The position numbers were made by a program, and so were the translations under genes. From contig JAJTCM010000001.1 of NCBI GenBank assembly GCA_021325675.1, forward strand, positions 744,001 to 808,000: DNA of 64,000 bases, read 5' to 3'. Shown here piece by piece: positions 9,763 to 20,615 of the stretch; positions within the stretch are counted from its first letter, which is position 1, and each line of letters opens with the position of its first letter. The notes under the pieces are model-generated. The model made no database searches and had not been told where the DNA came from. It was given only the letters and a program-made list of their open reading frames with translations. The stretch is from Crocinitomicaceae bacterium. Its GTDB lineage: Bacteria > Bacteroidota > Bacteroidia > Flavobacteriales_D > Crocinitomicaceae.

Positions 9763-11229
9763 TCAGTATTGATTATACAATTGCTGGCTGTTTCCGCCGT
9801 AATGCTTCATGTTCCCGTCGTTCGGATCGTCGATATTGGAGTTCATCGAATTGCGCTTCGACAGCTGCTGCTGCCAGCGGTAGTTCTGTACTTCGCCCTG
9901 CATATCGGAATGCAGCAAACGGTAAGTATTGTTCACTAAATCCGGGTTAAAGAAAATAAAACGCTTGTTGGAGAAATTTTTGATTTTGTCGTAGCGCCAG
10001 ATCTCGTACGGATAATCCGAAGGCGAATTTTCGCGGGTGATTACATTGTTCGGCGGACCATACTGAAGATAAACCCGGCCGCGGTCAGTTTCAAAACCTG
10101 CCGTGAAATTAGTAGAGAACAAACGCTCAACCATCCACACCTGCTGCTTGTATGTCATCCACTTGTCATAGACTTTTGTTCCATTCGTGGAGTTATACCA
10201 GTAAGACTGGATGTACTTGCGATACAGCTCGCGGTCTTTCGTTTTCAGCAGGGAAATGATGTTTTTGATTTCGGCCGGCTTGGAAATCGGGATCAGGCTT
10301 TCCACAAAATAAGCGAGGCTGTCATCCGTAATGGAAGCCTGGAAATTCGGGTCGAGCACAATGTTCTCCGTTGTAACGGGCGCGTATTCCATTTCCGTAA
10401 AACGCTCGAAAAAGTATTCGCTCACGGCAAGCTCTTTGCTTTCGCGGTCAACTAATGAAAATTGCAGGATGTATTCGCCGGAATTCAGCTTGCTGATGTC
10501 GATCACTTTGATGACCGGCTGAACCTGGTCAACCTCCACTTTGGAGAAACGCGTAAAGCTTTCAAGCTCCGTGCGTGTTTTCTGGTCAAGAATGGATTGT
10601 TTCAGGCCAAAAGTGTTTTTCTCATCCGATTTCGGGGCGTAAATTTCAAGGTAAACCGGGATGTTTTCCGCTTGTGTGGAGTAATAATTTGAAATACGCG
10701 GAATAATGTCATAACCGGATTTACTGAAGATGCTTTCATTTTTTACGGGAACGATCAGCTCAGCGGTTTCAATGTTGGAAAGGGACGTTTTATTCGCATA
10801 ATCGGCTATCTCCAGGTCCAGGAAAGTAGTCACCGGCTCATTTTCGCCGTATAAATCGGTCAGGGTCAGCTCCAGGTTATATTTTCCGGGATTGAGCGGA
10901 ACACGCTTGATTTCGTAAAAATCCTCAATAATACTGTCACGCATAACCGGGCTTTGCAGGCGGTAAGCGTCGGATTTCACGGCTTTGTCATCCTGGCGGA
11001 TGATGTAATGGATCCCGATTTCGCTCATTAAGCCATTTTGTCCGAGGGAGTCTGAAGGCTTGTAATTGAGTGAATAAGCTACAAATTGCAGGTGAAGCTC
11101 TACATAGCTGCCCGTTTCAGGCGTGTAGAACTCTTTGTGATCGAGGTAAGCTTTGAGCTTGTGTTTCTTTTGGGAAAAAGCAGAAACGCTCACGATAACA
11201 AAGCACAACAAAAAGAAGATATTTTTCAT
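9763..11229 (-). CDS. GWxTD domain-containing secreted protein
   Basis: The protein has 488 residues with a signal peptide (FFLLCFVIVSVSAFS). The first 300 residues are beta-rich and include KAYLDHKEFYTPETGSYVEL and repeated strand patterns like other GWxTD proteins. The GWxTD domain lies near residues 330-440: YWYNSTNGTK, then the diagnostic FETDRGRVYLQYGPP and YEIWRYDK with FIFFNPD. Such proteins occur in Bacteroidota and neighbouring phyla as exported proteins of unknown activity. The downstream GT2 gene is co-transcribed. The C-terminus is Asn/Gln-rich (NSNIDDPNDGN, then GGNSQQLYNQY). Confidence 0.85.
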   Translation of the reverse strand: MKNIFFLLCFVIVSVSAFSQKKHKLKAYLDHKEFYTPETGSYVELHLQFVAYSLNYKPSDSLGQNGLMSEIGIHYIIRQDDKAVKSDAYRLQSPVMRDSIIEDFYEIKRVPLNPGKYNLELTLTDLYGENEPVTTFLDLEIADYANKTSLSNIETAELIVPVKNESIFSKSGYDIIPRISNYYSTQAENIPVYLEIYAPKSDEKNTFGLKQSILDQKTRTELESFTRFSKVEVDQVQPVIKVIDISKLNSGEYILQFSLVDRESKELAVSEYFFERFTEMEYAPVTTENIVLDPNFQASITDDSLAYFVESLIPISKPAEIKNIISLLKTKDRELYRKYIQSYWYNSTNGTKVYDKWMTYKQQVWMVERLFSTNFTAGFETDRGRVYLQYGPPNNVITRENSPSDYPYEIWRYDKIKNFSNKRFIFFNPDLVNNTYRLLHSDMQGEVQNYRWQQQLSKRNSMNSNIDDPNDGNMKHYGGNSQQLYNQY

Positions 11230-11407
11230 CTGTCTGATTTTATATGGTAAAGTTACAAAAAGATCACGAATGGGTGACCTGAATTTTCTTAACGGTAAAA
11301 ACTATTGATTGAGCCGCGGCGGAGCCAATGCGTTAACCAGACTTCGTCGCTACTGCTCCCCGGGTTCTCATCCCTCGGTTTTATCGTGAAAACAAACTTC
11401 CGGAAAC

Positions 11408-11442
11408 GAAAAAAGTCCAGGCTTAAAACCCAGACTTTTTTT
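11408..11442 (-). terminator. Terminator-like hairpin copy (repeat unit 1)
   Basis: AAAAGTC and GACTTTT arms surround CAGGCTTAAAACCCA. It is the same hairpin as the one following the real tRNA-Ser. Confidence 0.5.
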
Positions 11443-11545
11443 GCGGAGAGTGAGGGATTGACTTCGTCGGGCTCCACTACGTTACGGCTCGAACCCCGGG
11501 GTTCTCATCCCTCGGTTTTATCGTGAAAACAAACTTCCGGAAACG

Positions 11546-11577
11546 AAAAAAGTCCAGGCTTAAAACCCAGACTTTTC
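11546..11577 (-). terminator. Terminator-like hairpin copy (repeat unit 2)
   Basis: The same AAAAGTC / GACTTTT stem and loop appear 136 bases from the neighbouring copies. On the minus strand a T-run follows the stem. Confidence 0.5.
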
Positions 11578-11681
11578 TGCGGAGAGTGAGGGATTGACTT
11601 CGTCGGGCTCCACTGCGTTACGACTCGAACCCCGGGGTTCTCATCCCTCAGTTTTAATGCAAAAACAAACTTCCGGAAACG

Positions 11682-11712
11682 AAAAAAGTCCAGGCTTATA
11701 ACCCAGACTTTT
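11682..11712 (-). terminator. Terminator of tRNA-Ser
   Basis: On the minus strand, four bases after the tRNA, AAAAGTC pairs with GACTTTT around a loop with two further GG/CC pairs and runs into a T-tract. It is a good intrinsic terminator for the tRNA transcript. Confidence 0.65.
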
Positions 11713-11715
11713 CTG

Positions 11716-11800
11716 CGGAGAGTGAGGGATTCGAACCCCCGGAACCCTTCGGTTCAACAGTTTTCAAGACTGCCGCAATCGACCACTCTGCCAACTCTCC
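11716..11800 (-). tRNA. tRNA-Ser (anticodon TGA)
   Basis: The minus strand reads an 85-base cloverleaf. Acceptor GGAGAGT pairs with ACTCTCC, followed by discriminator G. The D-arm region is TTGGCAGAGTGGTCGATTGC. The anticodon stem-loop is CAGTCTTGAAAACTG with anticodon TGA. The long variable arm GAACCGAAGGGTTC is expected for class II serine tRNAs, and the T-arm is GGGGGTTCGAATCCC. CCA is not encoded (CAG follows). It reads UCA/UCN codons. A terminator follows at once, and the 3' 17 bases recur in neighbouring repeats. Confidence 0.95.
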
Positions 11801-12067: not shown

Positions 12068-12679
12068 ATGGCACTTTCCTACAATTTAAAAAACAAATCG
12101 AAAATCGCAGCACTGCTCATCGTTGTGTTTGGCTTAATTTTCTTTAACCATGTGAGTAAAACCAGCGATTCGGCCGCATTAAAAAAAGCAATTTCTTCGA
12201 TTTATAACGACCGTCTCATTGTTGAAAGCTATATTTTGAACTTGTCTGAAAACATGCACCAGATGATTGATTTGAGCGACCAGGCGGACCGGGATTCAAA
12301 AAAGCAGGCCATTCACCAGGTTACCGCTCAAATTGATTCCGTTGAAAAAGCTTATCTCAAAACCGAGCTGACACCGATTGAAAAGAAAAAGTTTGAAGAT
12401 TTCAGGGCTAAACAGAATGCCATTACCCAAGCTTTGGCGGCTGATGACTTTGCGGAGATAAAAGAGCTTTCACATAAATCATTAGGCATTTTAAATGATT
12501 TGTCATTAATCCAGGTTTCAGAAGCGAAAACTGTCATGGAACAGACTGAAAAATTATTCGGCTCCGGTTTTATCTCTTCTAAATTTGAAATCGGAATTTT
12601 AATTATCATCGCTTTACTGATACAAGTGATGATTTTTACTTCCGAAAGCATTGCCCCGAAAAATTTCAAACACAATTAA
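12068..12679 (+). CDS. Four-helix-bundle sensor-like membrane protein without an output domain
   Basis: The protein has 203 residues. A first membrane helix lies at about residues 13-27 (AALLIVVFGLIFFNHV). About 135 residues of amphipathic helix follow (KKAISSIYNDRLIVESYILN, then heptad-rich AIHQVTAQIDSVEKAYLK). A second membrane helix is near residues 172-192 (IGILIIIALLIQVMIFTSE), and the tail is only about 10 residues. This layout matches the periplasmic 4HB_MCP ligand-binding domain of chemoreceptors and sensor kinases, but no HAMP, methyl-accepting or kinase domain follows. It may signal through a partner protein. The next gene is 24 bases downstream. Confidence 0.65.
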   Translation: MALSYNLKNKSKIAALLIVVFGLIFFNHVSKTSDSAALKKAISSIYNDRLIVESYILNLSENMHQMIDLSDQADRDSKKQAIHQVTAQIDSVEKAYLKTELTPIEKKKFEDFRAKQNAITQALAADDFAEIKELSHKSLGILNDLSLIQVSEAKTVMEQTEKLFGSGFISSKFEIGILIIIALLIQVMIFTSESIAPKNFKHN

Positions 12680-12703
12680 ACGTATAACTAAAAATCAAAA
12701 ATC

Positions 12704-12988
12704 ATGAATTGTCCAACGTGTAAAGATGTAAACCTCGTAATGTCTGAAAGACAAGGCGTAGAAATTGATTACTGTCCTTCCTGCAGGGGCGTTTGGCTCG
12801 ACCGCGGAGAATTAGACAAGATTATCGAAAAAGCTTCCCAGTCCGAACAAGGTCAAAGCTCCGGCATGAACCAGGCTTACGGTGATAAAAGCTATAAGCA
12901 GCACTCTGGCCATGATCAGCATAAATACAAAGATCATGACCATTATAAGCACAAAAAGAAAAATTGGTTAAGCGATCTTTTCGACTAA
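12704..12988 (+). CDS. TFIIB-type zinc-ribbon protein with a His/Lys-rich tail
   Basis: The protein has 94 residues. The N-terminal 40 residues form a zf-TFIIB ribbon: MNCPTCKDVNLV, then IDYCPSCRGVWLDRGELDKII. The two CxxC pairs are at residues 3/6 and 24/27, and the WLDRGEL signature is typical of this small bacterial family. The C-terminal half is low-complexity, with a His-, Lys- and Tyr-rich run (about residues 62-88) that may bind metal or nucleic acid; this is inference. It is probably co-transcribed with the preceding sensor-like gene, and an intrinsic terminator follows. Confidence 0.8.
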   Translation: MNCPTCKDVNLVMSERQGVEIDYCPSCRGVWLDRGELDKIIEKASQSEQGQSSGMNQAYGDKSYKQHSGHDQHKYKDHDHYKHKKKNWLSDLFD

Positions 12989-13012
12989 GCTTTTCTGCAG
13001 GCCCGTACCTGG

Positions 13013-13044
13013 AAACCGTTATTCAAAAGAGTGACGGTTTTTTT
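13013..13044 (+). terminator. Intrinsic terminator after the zinc-ribbon gene
   Basis: AAACCGT at 13013-13019 pairs with ACGGTTT at 13034-13040 around a 14-base loop and is followed by more T. It directly abuts the rlmI tail remnant. Confidence 0.65.
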
Positions 13045-13081
13045 ATTGCACTTCAATCACCAAACCTTCCAGGTATTTTCG
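13043..13081 (-). pseudogene. Oldest, diverged remnant of an rlmI 3' end
   Basis: Read on the minus strand, the codons before a TAA (13045-13043) give YLEGLVIEVQ. The intact methyltransferase at 17643-18812 ends YLKGLVIQVE. Seven of ten residues agree and the stop is in the same place. At DNA level ATCACCAAACCTTCCAGGTATT (13056-13077) differs from the intact gene at one of 22 positions. Similarity stops at about 13081. It is too short to be functional. Confidence 0.7.
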
Positions 13082-13158
13082 GGAGACATTTTCTAAACTC
13101 CTAAATCAACAATTGAATTCAAAAAAAATAGTAATATTGCAGTCAATAACTAAAGTTA

Positions 13159-13755
13159 ATGACCAGAGATATAAACCACCAAGACCACTTGCGAACTGTA
13201 GCGGAAAAAATTCGGCTGAAAAAAGAAAAAGAAGAACGTGAAGACAAAGAATTTTATGAGCGCATTACCTCAGGTGTACAATGGCTCATGTTTAAAATAG
13301 TTGTCGTCTTCTCAACGTTGATGTTATTGGTTTCCCTCATCGAGGTTTTCGTTGATGGCCCAACCAAAAAACTAACTGAAAATTCCTGGAAAATTGATCG
13401 GAACTGGGAATATACATGGCACAAGGTACTTGACGTGGAAGGATATATGTTCACTCCGACAATTGGAGACTGGAGTGATCGTGTGAAAAACAGTCTTAAA
13501 ATGACCTATTCACCTATTCTTCGAACGGGGAAGAAGCTACACTACTATATTAAAACCAATGGTTTCATCAGAAGGCAGGAAGAAATCAGAGAGAATTCCT
13601 TTTTTACCTGGTTTCCTGCATTTCAACTTTTTCTACTGATCCCTTTATTCACCTTCATTTTTAAGCGACAAAGCGCCTGGTTTAATTTTGCACGAATAGC
13701 TTCGTTCGCCCTGGTGCTTCCCGGAACCCTGCTGGTGATATACTTCACTTTATAA
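13159..13755 (+). CDS. Membrane protein of unknown function
   Basis: The 198-residue product has a highly charged N-terminus (about residues 8-36, rich in Lys and Glu). Hydrophobic segments lie at about residues 43-64 (LMFKIVVVFSTLMLLVSLIEVF), 150-168 (FPAFQLFLLIPLFTFIF) and 176-196. A soluble loop of about 80 residues, with several tryptophans, lies between the first and second. I do not recognise a family. The gene sits exactly between two remnants of the rlmI 3' end and is more AT-rich than the housekeeping genes, so it may be an acquired cassette. Confidence 0.65.
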   Translation: MTRDINHQDHLRTVAEKIRLKKEKEEREDKEFYERITSGVQWLMFKIVVVFSTLMLLVSLIEVFVDGPTKKLTENSWKIDRNWEYTWHKVLDVEGYMFTPTIGDWSDRVKNSLKMTYSPILRTGKKLHYYIKTNGFIRRQEEIRENSFFTWFPAFQLFLLIPLFTFIFKRQSAWFNFARIASFALVLPGTLLVIYFTL

Positions 13756-13787
13756 TAATCAGCTACCTCTTCGGGAAATTAAGAATA

Positions 13788-13870
13788 ATCACTCCACCTG
13801 GATCACCAAACCTTTCAGATATTCGCCTTCGGGGTGGAAAGCGCTGATGGGATGATCCGCGGGTTGGTGC
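13788..13870. repeat. Direct repeat, left copy (pairs with 17642-17724)
   Basis: An 83-bp direct repeat with a single mismatch, 3.85 kb from its partner. The pair flanks the SBBP-repeat gene and its upstream region. Confidence 0.92.
13789..13869 (-). pseudogene. 26-codon remnant of the rlmI 3' end
   Basis: The minus strand encodes the last 26 residues of the intact methyltransferase (HQPADHPISAF, then HPEGEYLKGLVIQVE) and its TGA without any amino-acid change. The 83 bases 13788-13870 match 17642-17724 with one difference (A at 13819, G at 17673). Upstream of His the sequence switches abruptly to the tRNA-Ser-tail element. Confidence 0.9.
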
Positions 13871-13947
13871 CGAAACGAAGCGGAGACCAGCGCAGCTAAT
13901 CCCTCACTCTCCGCTGAAAAGTCTGAGTTAATAGCTTAGACTTCTTT
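13871..13947 (+). repeat. Inverted copy of the tRNA-Ser-tail element with its own terminator
   Basis: A 28-base segment like that in the tandem units near 11.4-11.6 kb (bases 13869-13896) leads into AATCCCTCACTCTCCGC (13898-13914), identical to the tRNA-Ser 3' end. A different hairpin follows: AAGTCTGAG (13919-13927) pairs with CTTAGACTT (13935-13943) around TTAATAG. It lies in the opposite orientation to the tRNA locus. The rest of the gap to 14047 is AT-rich and probably holds the promoter of the next gene. Confidence 0.8.
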
Positions 13948-14047
13948 CGTTTATAGATTTTTGAGTTAATCACAAATTGTTTAAAGCAGATGTGAATTAA
14001 ATAAATAAAATAATTACTTTTAACATCATGACTATTTACTAAACACT

Positions 14048-17000
14048 ATGAATCAACACTTTCTACAAATTTCCATAAAAAGATTATTGGAAAATACAGT
14101 CGTGCTGTTTGTCTTTGCAGCAGCACTGATTTCACCGTTTAATGGCAATGCACAAGGCAATGAACAAGCTAATGCGCAATTGGCAAAATCCAGTCAACAG
14201 TTCTTCATCGAAAATAAGGGCCAGTGGCCGGAAGAAGTATTGTATCTCGCCCGAATGGGTGGACTGGATGCCTGGATTACAAAAAAAGGGGTGTTATACA
14301 CCTTTTACAAACTGGAAAAGAAAAAAGAAAATACTTCTTTGGCACAGCAAATCGAAATACTTGATAAGTTTGATCAACAAAGTGAAATGCGCAGCATCAT
14401 CGGGCACCGGGTGTGGGCTAAATTTCAAAACGCCAATACCGACCCTGGTCATGAAAGCAAACAAAAGCTGGAAGGCTATTACAATTATTTAATCGGGAAT
14501 GATCCTGGGAAACACGCCAGTAATGTAGGTTTATACAAAGAAGTCCTGGTAAAAAATGTATACACCGGTATTGATGCCCGTTATTATTTTGACGGGAGGA
14601 ATTTACGCTACGATTACATCGTGTATCCCGGAGCTGATTACAGGCAAATCCAGGTTCAGCTGGAAGGAGCGCTTAGCAGTAAAGTCAAAGATAAGGACCT
14701 CGTGTTTACAACCCGTTTCGGGGAGGTGAAACAGGCGGAATTATACGTTTACCAGGACCTGGAAAAAAAACGTCAAGCCATTGGCGCAACCTGGCAGAAA
14801 AAAGGTGAAAATTATGGTTTTTTGCTTAGTAATTATGACCCTACAAAACCAGTAGTTATAGATCCGTTGATTTATTCAACCTATATAGGCGCTGCTAACT
14901 ACAATGATGAAGGCTATTCGATAGCCGTAGATGCATCAGGTAACGCTTATGTAACAGGAAGAACGAATTCAGCCACCTATGATATCACGCCGGGGGCTTT
15001 TGATAATTCCCTGGGAGGTCATAACGCTTTTGTTACCAAGTTGAATACTTCGGGTACAGCGCTCATTTACTCGACTTTTATGGGAGGGGATATTTTCGAG
15101 GTGGGTAATTTCATTGTAGTAGATGATTTGGGCAATTCCTATGTGACGGGATCTACAATTTCAAGTGATTATCCTATAGTGGCGGGAGCATTTCAAAACA
15201 CAAATGGGGGTAGTCATGATGTTTTTGTAAGCAAGCTCAACGCAACCGGCACCGCACTCGTCTATTCCACATATGTCGGAGGAAGCGGAAATGATGTAGG
15301 CCGTGGAATTGCCTTGGATGCCTCAGGTAATGCATATATAATAGGGTATACCAGCTCAAGCAATTACGATGTTACTGCCGGGGTCTTTCAAAGTACGAAG
15401 GGAGGAGTGACCGATGATGTTTTTGTTACCAAACTTAATGCCACGGGTTCTGCGCTTCTCTATTCGACTTATATTGGAGGAAGCGGAACTGATTTAGGCC
15501 GTGCAATTGCCTTGGATGCCTCAGGTAATGCATATATAACAGGGTCTACCGCCTCAAGCAATTACGATGTTACACCAGGAGTTTTCCAAGCTGTTTTAGG
15601 GGCAAATAAAGATATTTTTGTTACCAAACTGGATTCAACAGGCACAGCGCTTCTTTATTCAACTTATATTGGAGGGAGTGGATATGAAGATGCTTACTCC
15701 ATAGCGATAGATACTTCCGGTAATGCTTACGTGACAGGATGGACAGAATCTGCTGATTATGATGTCACTCCGGGGGCATTTCAAAGTACCAACGAGGGCT
15801 ATAGTGATATTTTTGTGACTAAGCTCAGTCCTAATGGCGACACACTTGTTTATTCTACCTATATGGGAGGTAGCAGTTATGATAGGAGTACATCCATACA
15901 GCTAGATGCTTCAGGTAATGCCTATGTGGCGGGAGGAACATCTTCAATTAATTTTGACATCACCCCGGGAGCTTTTCAAACTAGTTGTGAGGTATCTGGT
16001 GATGTTTTTGCGAGCAAGCTCAGCCCTATGGGTATACCCATCTATTCTACCTTCATTGGAGGAAGCTGGAATGATATGGCTAGTGCTCTTGTTCTGGATG
16101 CTTCAGGTGTTGCTTACATCACAGGATCAACCTATTCAACTGACTTTGATATTAGTCCGGGAGCATTTCAAAGCACTAATAACCAGGTTGATGAATTGTA
16201 TTTTGACGTTTTTGTGACAAAGATCTGTTTGGATTATCCCCTTAGCACCTCTTTGATGTCAGCTCCGGAAACGGATAATCAAATTGTATGCATGAATACC
16301 GGTATCAGCTCAATCGTATATGTAGCCTCAGGTTCAACGGGAGCAAGCTTTAGTGGTCTTCCAGCCGGGGTAAATGCTTCCTGGAACAACGATACCATAA
16401 CGATTAGCGGCACACCAACAGAACCGGGTGTTTTTAACTACCAGTTGAATATATTGGGTAACTGCGGTGCCACAATATCGGGAACCATTACCGTTCCGCT
16501 TATCGTTACGGCCAATGCCTCTGTAACGAACGTTTGTGCCGGGACCCAGGTTGTCTTGAGCGGTAGCGGTTGGGATGGTGCTTCCTACTCCTGGACGGGC
16601 GGAGTCATTGATGGCGTGGCTTTTGTTCCGCTGGATACCACAACCTACATTGTAACCGCTACAGACACAAATAATTGTACCAATACAGACAGTATTACCG
16701 TAAATGTAAGCCAACTTCCACTGCCAACTGTGAGCGCTAGTGCATCTGTGACGACAATTTGTGCGGGAGCTTCAGTAACCTTAACTGGCGGCGGGGCCCA
16801 AAGTTATTCCTGGTCCGGTGGGATATCAGATGGGGTAAGCTTTACTCCTTTTGCGACTACCACTTATATTGTAACCGGAACAGATGCCAATATGTGCTTT
16901 GATAGCGCTTCAATAACGATACAGGTAAATCCCTTACCGCTTGTTACAGCCTTTACAACGGCTACGACCATTTGTGCCGGATCTCCCGTTACCCTCACAG

Positions 17001-17614
17001 GCGGCGGTGCGTTAAGCTATTCCTGGACTGGCGGTATTAGCAATGGCGTAGCTTTTACCCCTTCGGCAACTGCAAGCTATACTGTAACAGGAACAGACAT
17101 TAACAATTGCAGCAATACAGCAAGCAGAACAATTACGGTCAATGCCCTGCCAAATACGGCAACTACGGCAAACGGCCTTACTATTTCTGCAATCCTGGCC
17201 GGCGCAGCATATCAATGGATTGATTGTGACAACAATAACACCGCTATCCCAAACCAAACGAACCGGAATTTCACAACGGCTGTAAATGGGAATTATGCCG
17301 TAATCATTACCCAAAACGGCTGTTCGGATACTTCGGCCTGTATTACCATAAATACGGTTGGGATCACTGGACCGGGCGACATAAAAAACTTAACGGTTTA
17401 CCCGAACCCCAACAATGGAACCTTTACCATCAGTGCTGAAAATGAAGGAAAATATAGCCTTGTTAATGAATTGGGGCAAACGGTCAGGGAATTTGAGCTG
17501 AACGCTGCCAATAAATACACGGCACCGGTAAAAAACTTAAGTACCGGGGTATATTATATTGTTGGCTTCACTAACACTGAAGTATTCAAGCAGAAAGTAA
17601 TAGTAACGGAATAA
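14048..17614 (+). CDS. SBBP-repeat surface protein with T9SS type A sorting domain
   Basis: This 1188-residue protein has a signal peptide ending near residue 36 (FAAALISPFNGNAQ). Next comes the domain that usually precedes SBBP repeats (FFIENKGQWPEEVLYLAR near residue 52). Seven SBBP repeats of about 60 residues follow (residues 276-727, each with YSTYIGGSG, then LDASGNAYVTG and TPGAFQ). An Ig/cadherin-like segment comes next, then three to four Ig-like repeats around CAGxxVTLTGGG and SYSWTGG. The C-terminal sorting domain (VYPNPNNGTFTIS, GVYYIVGF) ends VFKQKVIVTE. It is exported by T9SS and probably adhesive. The gene sits between two copies of the rlmI 3' end. Confidence 0.9.
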   Translation: MNQHFLQISIKRLLENTVVLFVFAAALISPFNGNAQGNEQANAQLAKSSQQFFIENKGQWPEEVLYLARMGGLDAWITKKGVLYTFYKLEKKKENTSLAQQIEILDKFDQQSEMRSIIGHRVWAKFQNANTDPGHESKQKLEGYYNYLIGNDPGKHASNVGLYKEVLVKNVYTGIDARYYFDGRNLRYDYIVYPGADYRQIQVQLEGALSSKVKDKDLVFTTRFGEVKQAELYVYQDLEKKRQAIGATWQKKGENYGFLLSNYDPTKPVVIDPLIYSTYIGAANYNDEGYSIAVDASGNAYVTGRTNSATYDITPGAFDNSLGGHNAFVTKLNTSGTALIYSTFMGGDIFEVGNFIVVDDLGNSYVTGSTISSDYPIVAGAFQNTNGGSHDVFVSKLNATGTALVYSTYVGGSGNDVGRGIALDASGNAYIIGYTSSSNYDVTAGVFQSTKGGVTDDVFVTKLNATGSALLYSTYIGGSGTDLGRAIALDASGNAYITGSTASSNYDVTPGVFQAVLGANKDIFVTKLDSTGTALLYSTYIGGSGYEDAYSIAIDTSGNAYVTGWTESADYDVTPGAFQSTNEGYSDIFVTKLSPNGDTLVYSTYMGGSSYDRSTSIQLDASGNAYVAGGTSSINFDITPGAFQTSCEVSGDVFASKLSPMGIPIYSTFIGGSWNDMASALVLDASGVAYITGSTYSTDFDISPGAFQSTNNQVDELYFDVFVTKICLDYPLSTSLMSAPETDNQIVCMNTGISSIVYVASGSTGASFSGLPAGVNASWNNDTITISGTPTEPGVFNYQLNILGNCGATISGTITVPLIVTANASVTNVCAGTQVVLSGSGWDGASYSWTGGVIDGVAFVPLDTTTYIVTATDTNNCTNTDSITVNVSQLPLPTVSASASVTTICAGASVTLTGGGAQSYSWSGGISDGVSFTPFATTTYIVTGTDANMCFDSASITIQVNPLPLVTAFTTATTICAGSPVTLTGGGALSYSWTGGISNGVAFTPSATASYTVTGTDINNCSNTASRTITVNALPNTATTANGLTISAILAGAAYQWIDCDNNNTAIPNQTNRNFTTAVNGNYAVIITQNGCSDTSACITINTVGITGPGDIKNLTVYPNPNNGTFTISAENEGKYSLVNELGQTVREFELNAANKYTAPVKNLSTGVYYIVGFTNTEVFKQKVIVTE
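14873..16228 (+). repeat. Seven SBBP coding repeats
   Basis: Within the preceding gene, seven units of about 180-195 bases each encode a YSTYIGG start, an A-x-D-x-x-GNAYVTG strand pair and a TPGAFQ turn. Units 3 and 4 are especially alike at DNA level (for example GCCTTGGATGCCTCAGGTAA in both), which points to recent duplication or gene conversion. Confidence 0.85.
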
Positions 17615-17641
17615 AATCAGGGTCTTTATAACCTAAGCAAC

Positions 17642-17724
17642 ATCACTCCACCTGGATCACCAAACCTTTCAGGTATTCGCCTTCGGGGTGGAAAGCGCTG
17701 ATGGGATGATCCGCGGGTTGGTGC
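17642..17724. repeat. Direct repeat, right copy (3' end of the intact rlmI gene)
   Basis: Partner of 13788-13870. This copy forms the functional last 26 codons and stop of the methyltransferase gene. Confidence 0.92.
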
Positions 17725-18812
17725 ATTTGTTCCAGAATACGGACGTTCCTACCACTTTCGATTGCTGCGGCAATGATGGTGTTTGTAAACAAAAACTTGT
17801 CAACTACCTGCGAGCAGGAAAAAGTAAAGAGCATCCCGCCCGGCTTAATCTGGCGGATTGCGTGGGCGTTCAACCGCTTGTAGCCCTGGATTGCCTGGTG
17901 GCGCTTGTCGCGGTGTTTGGCGAAAGCCGGCGGATCGAGTACAATGATATCGTATTTTTCAGGTAATTCTTTGATATAATCCATGGTATCGGCTACGATA
18001 GACGTGTTTTTCGATACATAACCGTTGAGTACCACATTCGCGTCCGTGAGCTCAATGGCTTTTTTAGAACTGTCGAGTGAGTGTGTAAACGTTGCGCCGC
18101 CCTGGATAGCAGAAAGGCTGAAACCACCGGAATAGCAAAAGGTATTGAGCACTTTTTTGCCCAGGGAATATTTGCCGAGCAAGGCCCGGTTTTCGCGCTG
18201 ATCTATGAAAAAGCCTGTTTTTTGCCCGTTGATCCAATCGATTTCGTATTTCACGCCGTTTTCAAGGGCGATGTGCGGGGTTTCGCAGTTCCCGAAAATG
18301 TATTCGTTTTTTGCTTCAATGCGCTCCGGCAAGGTATCGGAAGATTTGGAATAAATAGCAGTCAGCTGGCTACCCAAAGCATGCTGCAAAGCATTTGAGA
18401 TCAAATCCAGCGAGCGGTACATACCGATGCTGTGGCACTGGATCACGGCTACACCGTTGTAAAAATCCACGATCAGGCCAGGCAATTGATCGCCTTCGCC
18501 GTGTACAAGACGAAAAATCGTATTGTCCTTGCGCAGCAGGTTGAGCTTCATGCGTAAATCCACCGCTTTTTGGAGCTGTCCGTTGAAGAAATCCTGGTCC
18601 AGCTCTGTTTCTTCAAAGCTCAGGATCCGTACGGAAATTGTGGCCGGCTGAAAATGCCCGACAGCCAAAAAGCGGCCTTTTGGGTCTTCCACACGTACGT
18701 TTTCACCTTCTTCGATCCCTTTTGTTTCAGAAATGATCGCCCCGGAAAAAACCCAGGGGTGACGACGTTCGATTGAATGGATTTTGGCTTTGTTTATTTT
18801 GATGCTTTGCAT
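17643..18812 (-). CDS. rlmI: Class I SAM-dependent 23S rRNA methyltransferase (RlmI-type)
   Basis: This 389-residue protein matches RlmI/YccW, which makes m5C at 23S position 1962 in E. coli. The PUA domain is N-terminal (KINKAKIHSIERRHPWVFSGAI, residues 4-75). A linker domain with GEGDQLPGLIVDFYNG follows. The Rossmann methyltransferase domain has LNTFCYSGGFSLSA (SAM-binding motif I, about residue 220), then DVVLDPP-like IIVLDPPAFAK (motif IV) and FTFSCSQVVD. Its 3' 83 bases recur 3.85 kb away, and a shorter diverged version is at 13043-13081, so the stop-codon region seems to be an insertion point. A -7 box is at 18821-18828. Confidence 0.93.
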   Translation of the reverse strand: MQSIKINKAKIHSIERRHPWVFSGAIISETKGIEEGENVRVEDPKGRFLAVGHFQPATISVRILSFEETELDQDFFNGQLQKAVDLRMKLNLLRKDNTIFRLVHGEGDQLPGLIVDFYNGVAVIQCHSIGMYRSLDLISNALQHALGSQLTAIYSKSSDTLPERIEAKNEYIFGNCETPHIALENGVKYEIDWINGQKTGFFIDQRENRALLGKYSLGKKVLNTFCYSGGFSLSAIQGGATFTHSLDSSKKAIELTDANVVLNGYVSKNTSIVADTMDYIKELPEKYDIIVLDPPAFAKHRDKRHQAIQGYKRLNAHAIRQIKPGGMLFTFSCSQVVDKFLFTNTIIAAAIESGRNVRILEQMHQPADHPISAFHPEGEYLKGLVIQVE

Positions 18813-18820
18813 AATTGCTG

Positions 18821-18828
18821 CAAAGGTA
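18821..18828 (-). promoter_or_regulatory. -7 box (TACCTTTG) of rlmI
   Basis: The plus strand reads CAAAGGTA. The minus-strand TAnnTTTG match ends eight bases before the ATG at 18812, giving a very short leader. Confidence 0.4.
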
Positions 18829-18890
18829 AGCAGAGAAAAGGTGCGGCCCGTCTTTTTTAACTGAATTTTCCTTAATTTGTAAAAAAATAA

Positions 18891-18898
18891 TATATTTG
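18891..18898 (+). promoter_or_regulatory. -7 box (TATATTTG) upstream of the 18936 gene
   Basis: An exact TAnnTTTG match, 37 bases before the start codon, in the divergent region shared with rlmI. Confidence 0.4.
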
Positions 18899-18935
18899 AC
18901 TTTCATTCAGTAACATGACACTATAAAACCACGCT

Positions 18936-20615
18936 ATGAAAAAATTGCTATTCTCTTTCCTGGTGCTTTTATTCAGCTCCATGGCTTTTACCCAAAGTTA
19001 TGAGCTCGTAAGCACAAGCAGCAAAAGCTATCATAAAAATTTATCCCGCTATTACCTAAGCGACATAACCGAGCTTTCAACCGGGGATTCCGGCACAGTT
19101 TACGGGAATGTACCGTGCTATTATCCCTCTGCTGTTTGCTACCATGATTTTTCCTGGCTGGGTAAACAAATCATTAAAAAACCTGATGGTATTTATGCTT
19201 TTTTAAATAAAGACCTGGATTCCATTTGGATAAACCCACTTGCTTCCGCGGGCTCATCCTGGCTTTTTTACAGGCTTGGAGCGGGTGTTTTTATCCATGC
19301 CTACATCTCTTCGCATACTCTTGAAACTTTTTGTGACGTCCAGGATTCCGTAAAAACAATTTCTTTTCAATGTTATGGTCCCGGCAACATCCCCCAAACC
19401 CATCCAATGAACATCCAGACCCTAAAAATCAGTAAAAACTATGGTTTTGTTTCAGGCCTGAATTTTTACATGTTCCCGACATCCATCGAAAAAATGAACC
19501 TTGTTGGGCGCACCGCACCGGATATAGGATTGATCCCCCCTACTGCCCCAGAAGTATTTAATTTCCAGCCGGGGGATGTCTTTAAATACCGGTACGAATA
19601 TTCCTGGGAAGATAATGTGGATATTCGTTTTAATCGCAGGATCACTTCCAGAACAGACCTTGAGCATGGTGTTCGTTACACGTATATCGAAGGGGAAGTT
19701 TACGATCATTTCAATGACCTCTCTTTTACGATGCATTATGGCTTTGATGTCAGTGAAGATACACTGGTATACAACTATGAAACATTCGACCAGAATATCT
19801 TTAGCCGTGTACCGCAAAGCAGCAACGGGGACACCCTTTTTGCGTATGATATTACCAGCCAATATGCAACACCGGTGGTATCGAGGATCATATACCCTGA
19901 GGTGAATTCAACAACTTCCTGTTTTACACCGTTTGACGGGGAAATCGACGATCATCATTATTTAAAAACCTCCTATGTGGAAGGCTTGGGTTTAGTGATT
20001 TCCGAAGAGCTGATTGCCGATCTTGATACGTGGACCACCCGAAAAAAAACAAGCCTCACTTCTTATAACAAGGACAGTGATACGACAAACGATTTTTCAG
20101 ACCTCTGTCAACAATTCCAAGGCTACATAAACTCCTACCTGAGATTGGGTTTTTCGACAACTGATCATTACATCATCGCCTACGAAAGTCCCGGTGACAA
20201 CTACCTTCACATGGACGATTTTACCAAAATTTGGTACAGGAACGGTATACCGTACGATACGACGAATGACCTGACACTTTCTAATATCACACAGGACGGA
20301 ACTTATACCCTCAAATTGTACAACCCCTTTTGTATGTTTACTACGGAAAATGAATTCGTGAATTACTTCGGAACGGCATCAATTGCTGAAACGGAACACG
20401 AAAAACTGGATATTTATCCCAATCCGGGCAATGGAATCTTCAACATTGATTCCGATAAAGAGCTTGCTTACAGTGTATTTTCCTCCGACGGCCGGAAATT
20501 ACTGGAAGGAACGACCAAAAATAAACAACTTGATCTCACCGGGATGCAACAGGGAATTTATTATATTTGCTTCGAAAACGCATCCAATAGCATTCGGAAG
20601 CTCATTAAAAAGTAA
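18936..20615 (+). CDS. Secreted protein with T9SS type A sorting domain, unknown passenger
   Basis: The protein has 559 residues. The signal peptide is MKKLLFSFLVLLFSSMAFTQ. The passenger (about residues 20-480) is rich in aromatic and acidic residues and shows no enzyme motif that I recognise. Features such as PGDVFKYRYEYSWEDN are typical of anonymous Bacteroidota T9SS cargo. The C-terminal sorting domain starts near residue 485: LDIYPNPGNGIFNID, then GRKLLEG and GIYYICFE, ending RKLIKK. It is exported by T9SS to the surface or medium. The next gene, a small lipoprotein, follows after 45 bases. Confidence 0.82.
   Translation: MKKLLFSFLVLLFSSMAFTQSYELVSTSSKSYHKNLSRYYLSDITELSTGDSGTVYGNVPCYYPSAVCYHDFSWLGKQIIKKPDGIYAFLNKDLDSIWINPLASAGSSWLFYRLGAGVFIHAYISSHTLETFCDVQDSVKTISFQCYGPGNIPQTHPMNIQTLKISKNYGFVSGLNFYMFPTSIEKMNLVGRTAPDIGLIPPTAPEVFNFQPGDVFKYRYEYSWEDNVDIRFNRRITSRTDLEHGVRYTYIEGEVYDHFNDLSFTMHYGFDVSEDTLVYNYETFDQNIFSRVPQSSNGDTLFAYDITSQYATPVVSRIIYPEVNSTTSCFTPFDGEIDDHHYLKTSYVEGLGLVISEELIADLDTWTTRKKTSLTSYNKDSDTTNDFSDLCQQFQGYINSYLRLGFSTTDHYIIAYESPGDNYLHMDDFTKIWYRNGIPYDTTNDLTLSNITQDGTYTLKLYNPFCMFTTENEFVNYFGTASIAETEHEKLDIYPNPGNGIFNIDSDKELAYSVFSSDGRKLLEGTTKNKQLDLTGMQQGIYYICFENASNSIRKLIKK

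Follow-up and report, generated by a model that had tools for sequence, protein, structure and literature searches.

Serial displacement has been described for the T6SS effector loci of Vibrio cholerae, where it is proposed to proceed via homology-facilitated illegitimate recombination, and the same account mentions strings of orphaned 3' regions at Vibrio T6SS loci (PMC5361080). Genomic islands in tRNA genes, as outlined in the Islander report (PMC4383910), restore their target gene and leave a displaced fragment of it. The locus considered here shares features with both systems. It lies in a 64,000-nucleotide stretch of DNA (the window) within a 919-kb contig of a genome assembled into 12 contigs and 99.8% complete. 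In this window the 3' end of rlmI, a gene for a 23S rRNA methyltransferase, is duplicated, and the duplication is real and unique to this genome among those examined. An event of a known kind has most likely left its mark here, and the locus looks like a one-off recombination scar rather than a recurrent insertion hotspot. A core repeat behind serine tRNA genes, to which the duplicated end is joined, is a better lead than the rlmI duplication itself and the part most worth following. The features at rlmI are these.

12068-12988, plus strand: two further genes of the same segment, for a 4HB_MCP-domain protein (203 aa) and a Zn-ribbon TFIIB-like protein (94 aa)
13043-13081, minus strand: possible copy C, a diverged and weakly matching rlmI 3' end that reads KYLEGLVIEVQ-stop
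13159-13755, plus strand: MEM (ORF list), an orphan cargo protein of 198 aa, called a membrane protein in the initial annotation
13788-13870, minus strand: copy B, the duplicated rlmI 3' end
14048-17614, plus strand: T9, a cargo gene of 1188 aa with DUF7948, SBBP beta-propeller repeats and a T9SS sorting tail (Pfam, NCBIfam)
17642-17724, minus strand: copy A, the last 83 bp of intact rlmI
17643-18812, minus strand: rlmI, an intact gene for an RlmI-type 23S rRNA methyltransferase of 389 aa, with Pfam- and NCBIfam-type matches

The rlmI product is RlmI-like, with NCBIfam scores below the equivalog cut-offs. The initial annotation had reported that the 83-base end of this gene recurs in the same orientation with one mismatch, and blastn within the genome gave the same result (82 of 83 bases, E 6.9e-36), the sole mismatch falling in a synonymous Tyr codon. 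Identity between copies A and B ceases 1 bp past the rlmI stop codon (17643-17645 and 13789-13791) and, at its other limit, between 13870 and 13871. The locus thus carries the direct repeat of a gene end, with the target gene restored, by which an integrative element or genomic island is recognized, and on one side, in the intact rlmI and its 99% identical second end, it carries the homology anchor by which homology-facilitated illegitimate recombination is recognized. The closeness of the two ends suggests that the event was recent or that the donor was closely related. The best matches of a literature search on rlmI as an integration target did not mention this gene.

Two open reading frames lie between the rlmI ends, as had been described. 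MEM and T9 each point toward an rlmI end, stopping 33 and 28 bp before it. MEM matched no Pfam or NCBIfam family. Both genes are sporadic in the family: MEM had a homologue at E < 1e-60 in 15 other genomes (150 were searched, the source genome included), and of 239 other genomes, 3 had a match to the N-terminal part of T9 at E <= 1e-40. In the comparison of codon use that the initial annotation had called for, the cargo genes were low in GC3, which was 0.39-0.46 in five accessory genes and 0.52-0.59 in seven core genes. A second gene with a T9SS tail (18936-20612), on the far side of rlmI, was unmatched around rlmI in 20 relatives.

We examined 10 of the 15 MEM loci in other genomes. None was flanked by a duplicated gene end, so that MEM was rejected as a cassette carrying such an end; the repeats seen at these loci were of 18-19 nt in L118 and, in L124, a single one of 30 nt at 90% identity. 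The surroundings of MEM, judged by eye, differed among the 10 loci, except that G102 and G158 had a common downstream neighbour. In one of the 10 (G108, L123:7299-10142), an SBBP/T9SS gene comes after the MEM homologue on the same strand, as T9 comes after MEM here, the two SBBP/T9SS proteins being 33% identical over 446 aligned positions. The description of MEM and T9 as two unrelated cargo genes may therefore be too strong, and the pair may not be wholly unrelated. Two further candidates were rejected. A paralogue as the source of T9 was set aside since none of the 44 partial matches that T9 has in its own genome, besides itself, is close; a common 3' flank of the two genes found no support in a comparison of the 32 bp after MEM with the 27 bp after T9 (permutation p 0.16).

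The proposal that rlmI is an insertion hotspot was evaluated in three sets of genomes or loci. Self-comparison of 20 relatives, drawn from the 32 other genomes with a near-full-length rlmI match, found no repeat of the rlmI coding end at E <= 0.01, and both MEM and T9 were absent from the stretches around rlmI in these genomes, indicating that unoccupied rlmI sites exist. When the last 33 residues were used as a probe for second ends in 240 family genomes, including the source, 194 had a match, and two matches were found in the source genome and in G115 alone. In G115, a fragmentary MAG, the second match falls on a different contig and is an open frame of 319 aa. The 46 genomes that the probe did not match are uninformative, which leaves 193 other genomes as the base of comparison. 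Finally, 51 of 80 rlmI loci were self-compared (L217 and L228, where the match falls short of the end, and L238-L264, of lower identity, were omitted); at least four of the 51 come from contigs that the set of 20 relatives had covered. Nothing better than 31 nt at E 0.001 (L237) was found as a leftover rlmI end; the five of these 51 loci that matched at E <= 0.01 did so over 31 nt or less, once upstream and once in inverted orientation, and we read them as noise.

The downstream comparison that had been suggested as a check thus yielded no leftover ends in the 20 relatives and none that was convincing in the 51 loci. With a second match in one of 193 other genomes, the fragmentary G115, a family-wide hotspot at rlmI was rejected. 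Of the original proposal, an insertion at the 3' end of rlmI that is specific to this lineage and left the old end in place is supported by the unoccupied sites of the 20 relatives and by the sporadic, low-GC3 cargo. The remark that no integrase is visible was also borne out for tyrosine integrases: none was found in the window or among the main ORFs scanned with Pfam, and the three in the genome that pass the Pfam cut-off all lie outside the window, the sole one on this contig about 134 kb away. Furthermore, a Pfam scan of six ORFs, the main ones from 12068 to 20612, matched no transposase family.

Whether the site was used at least twice, as had been claimed, hinges on copy C, which is plausible as a remnant of an rlmI end but not proven. 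It lies on the rlmI strand, is in frame through to a stop, and matches the rlmI end at 21 of 22 bases in a blastn search of the 64-kb window (E 2.4e-4). However, a profile of other rlmI 3' ends scored it at E 0.2 in 164 kb, with a noise match beside it at 0.32. By eye, copy C has no core-type junction like that of copy B. The claim of repeated use is accordingly no firmer than this weak match, and the statement that the farther copy is the more decayed depends on it as well.

The inner limit of copy B coincides with a feature absent from the initial annotation, a detached copy of a tRNA-Ser 3' end. The elements concerned are as follows.

9763-11229, minus strand: gene for a GWxTD-domain protein, the usual neighbour of tRNA-Ser(UGA) in relatives
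11358-11731, minus strand: array behind tRNA-Ser of about 2.8 tandem 136-bp units, each made up of core, tRNA 3' end and terminator
11715-11800, minus strand: tRNA-Ser(UGA) (ARAGORN), flipped relative to the GWxTD gene when compared with relatives
13847-13914, plus strand: hybrid core element, the first 24 bases of which are rlmI copy B and the remainder core repeat and tRNA 3' end
13898-13952, plus strand: X4, a detached fourth copy of the tRNA-Ser 3' end (17 nt) and terminator, inverted relative to the tRNA gene

The tRNA-Ser(UGA) gene is the only tRNA gene that ARAGORN found in the window, and the units of the array repeat its last 17 nt and its terminator. Copy B ends 27 bp before X4 and the two are fused. 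A model made solely from the cores of other genomes recognized 13850-13905 at E 1e-10, though the first 21 bases of that match are rlmI DNA; with the R1 model, which includes two units of the source genome, the hybrid element scored E 2.4e-11. The rest of the hybrid core has its nearest relatives in G092 and G065 (scores of 30-32 over 35-36 positions; G170 scored 30). At the fusion, rlmI GGGTTGGTGC stands in place of the look-alike part of the core, which in G092 and G065 is GGGTTCGTGC and matches it at 9 of 10 positions; other cores match at 6-8 of 10, and the two units of the source genome at 7 and 8 of 10. The native rlmI site by itself received no score with the core model. This resemblance between rlmI and the core is short and was noticed after the fact, so that we regard it as suggestive.

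The core itself is found widely behind the tRNA-Ser genes of the family, where a T-arm look-alike (GGGATGAGAACCC..GGGTTCG) is separated by about 30 nt of filler from AATCCCTCNNTCTCCGC, which the local terminator often follows. The pattern of the tRNA 3' end occurs in 161 of 240 family genomes, a count in which a match may be merely a tRNA gene, and in at least 13 genomes (source included) two or more copies lie on the same strand with less than 200 bp between them. We inspected twelve arrays from relatives and that of the window; in genera g11 and g12 some arrays keep this layout but differ in the filler, G092 has one filler in common between two different tRNA-Ser loci, and from copy to copy the repeated tRNA end keeps the same pair of variable bases. 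The core model (A1, R1) was built from ten cores. R1 matched 63 of the 240 genomes at E <= 1e-5, six of which contributed sequences and match by construction, and a tRNA-Ser gene (UGA, GGA or GCT) lay within the same 1.6-3.1 kb at 28 of 30 core loci checked. Tandem core arrays were also seen at L269, L270, L271, L276, L277 and L280.

Three detached core copies were seen: X4, L317 (G011:C206) and L318 (G108:C43), the latter two having no nearby tRNA. X4 alone among them is fused to a duplicated protein-gene end; the 300 bp preceding the G011 and G108 copies are not repeated in the surrounding contig stretches. The tRNA-Ser 3' end with its terminator is duplicated behind the gene in several genera. 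In G004 the copy (101 bp, 94%) is 1.28 kb away from tRNA-Ser(UGA) in L131, and an ORF6N-domain gene of 182 aa is the sole clear gene in the stretch bounded by the two (L131:9625-11072). Folding z-scores of -0.1 to -1.6 in four sequences lend no weight to the idea that the core is a structured RNA. No published name or description of the repeat was found in titles and abstract openings, and literature on tRNA fragments and on Crocinitomicaceae, as represented by the same kind of record, contained nothing relevant.

The surroundings of the locus are rearranged as well. Among ten loci of relatives compared for the orientation of tRNA-Ser(UGA), the GWxTD gene and the tRNA gene were divergent in all eight where they are adjacent; of the other two loci, L132 has them more than 2 kb apart and L131 yielded no GWxTD match. 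Here the tRNA gene and the GWxTD gene share the minus strand, indicating that the tRNA gene has been flipped together with its array. In the 164 kb around this locus, nothing matched at 45% identity or more to the two genes found behind rlmI in G001 and G002, and one of them, a 442-aa MatE gene, is about 286 kb off in this genome, with a formyltransferase gene behind it. On the other flank of rlmI, genes are conserved in 9 of the 20 relatives. Taken together, these differences mark the locus as a rearranged spot in this lineage.

The best explanation for these observations, which we nonetheless hold tentatively and with somewhat less than even confidence, is a concatenation in which two alleles of the DNA behind rlmI were joined. 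The recipient chromosome would have carried MEM convergent with rlmI, and the incoming DNA or sister copy would have carried the tRNA-Ser core repeat, the T9 gene and an rlmI end, in that order. One of the two exchanges would have been ordinary homologous recombination inside rlmI. In the other, the T-arm-like part of the core would have been joined to the look-alike site in rlmI, 83 bp from the gene end, and the product would have kept the recipient's old 3' end (copy B) beside MEM and a near-identical rlmI end (copy A) beside T9. We infer the order of events, and that the T9 allele was supplied by DNA uptake or by unequal exchange; copy C would mark an earlier round of the same process.

Joining of alleles with different downstream DNA would be expected to leave a copy B that stops 1 bp after the stop codon, and it accounts for the 99% likeness of the ends and for the inner boundary in the core repeat with no need of an integrase. 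It is favoured by the recognition of the inner end of copy B by a model from other genomes, and by sporadic, low-GC3 cargo together with the lack of leftover ends in relatives. It is weakened by the shortness and post-hoc nature of the microhomology, and the unscored native rlmI site counts against it, as does the MEM and SBBP/T9SS pair of G108, given that MEM and T9 could belong together. Neither of the postulated alleles (MEM-rlmI; core-T9-rlmI) was found on its own, and none lies beside rlmI in the 20 relatives.

The same junction could have arisen by site-specific integration, in which a tyrosine-integrase element that normally targets the tRNA-Ser T-arm or 3' end inserted at the end of rlmI as a secondary site and restored the gene, the integrase being lost later. 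In elements that restore a gene end, identity typically ends at the stop codon, as it does here, and the junction lies at a T-arm-like motif adjoining a tRNA-Ser 3'-end copy; the duplication of such ends in several genera, once around the ORF6N stretch of G004, points the same way. However, the integrase is missing from the window and from the ORFs scanned, no other clearly occupied rlmI site was seen in the family genomes examined, and the insert contains one secreted-protein gene; we consider this origin unlikely. We consider it unlikely, too, that the core repeat (T-arm look-alike, filler of about 30 nt and local tRNA 3' end) is itself the agent of the rlmI duplication: it would be a short sequence that is mobile or prompts recombination, moves from one serine tRNA gene to another with a new copy of the local gene end on each occasion, and in this case picked up the end of rlmI.

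Because the core repeat and the rlmI motif are directly oriented around T9, unequal exchange within the chromosome would also yield the joint of copy B and core, by duplicating the core-T9-rlmI end in tandem. It would require the extra step of replacing the first T9 by MEM, and the 3' flanks of these genes are not significantly alike, so that this course of events appears improbable. If MEM and T9 had arrived together, as the order of the G108 genes would allow, the short stretch that combines rlmI end, core and tRNA end (13788-13952) could be a templated or captured fragment that came to lie between them. Such a pair was present in just one of the 10 MEM loci, SBBP and T9SS genes are common (as the 44 partial T9 matches attest), and the rlmI-orientation fragment behind MEM, mirroring the intact gene behind T9, would stay unexplained; we judge this quite improbable. 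An assembly artefact might be suspected since the contigs of four relatives stop at or just behind the tRNA-Ser 3' end, but the length of this contig, the completeness of the genome, the one-base difference between copies A and B and their unlike flanks make it very improbable.

If the joining of two alleles is the true origin, the end of a housekeeping gene can anchor the stacking of accessory genes by homology and without an integrase. The core repeat is a family-wide tandem repeat behind serine tRNA genes, and could mark or drive gene turnover in the family.

In comparison with the known systems, the locus resembles the Vibrio T6SS loci, as portrayed in PMC5361080, in that cargo is anchored by homology and the previous gene end is displaced outward and retained, orphan pieces accumulating over successive rounds. 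It differs from them in its target, a housekeeping gene for an rRNA methyltransferase that is left intact, in the tRNA-Ser core repeat at its second joint, in having at most two rounds, one of them doubtful, and in lacking any toxin-immunity logic. With the tRNA-gene islands described in PMC4383910 it has in common a duplicated gene end bracketing acquired DNA and a restored gene; unlike them, it showed no tyrosine integrase and no recurrent use of rlmI, and its 83-bp repeat surrounds a single gene. X4, finally, has the same core and the same tRNA 3' end and terminator as the core repeats behind the tRNA-Ser genes of the family, but differs from those in being detached and fused to the duplicated end of a protein gene.
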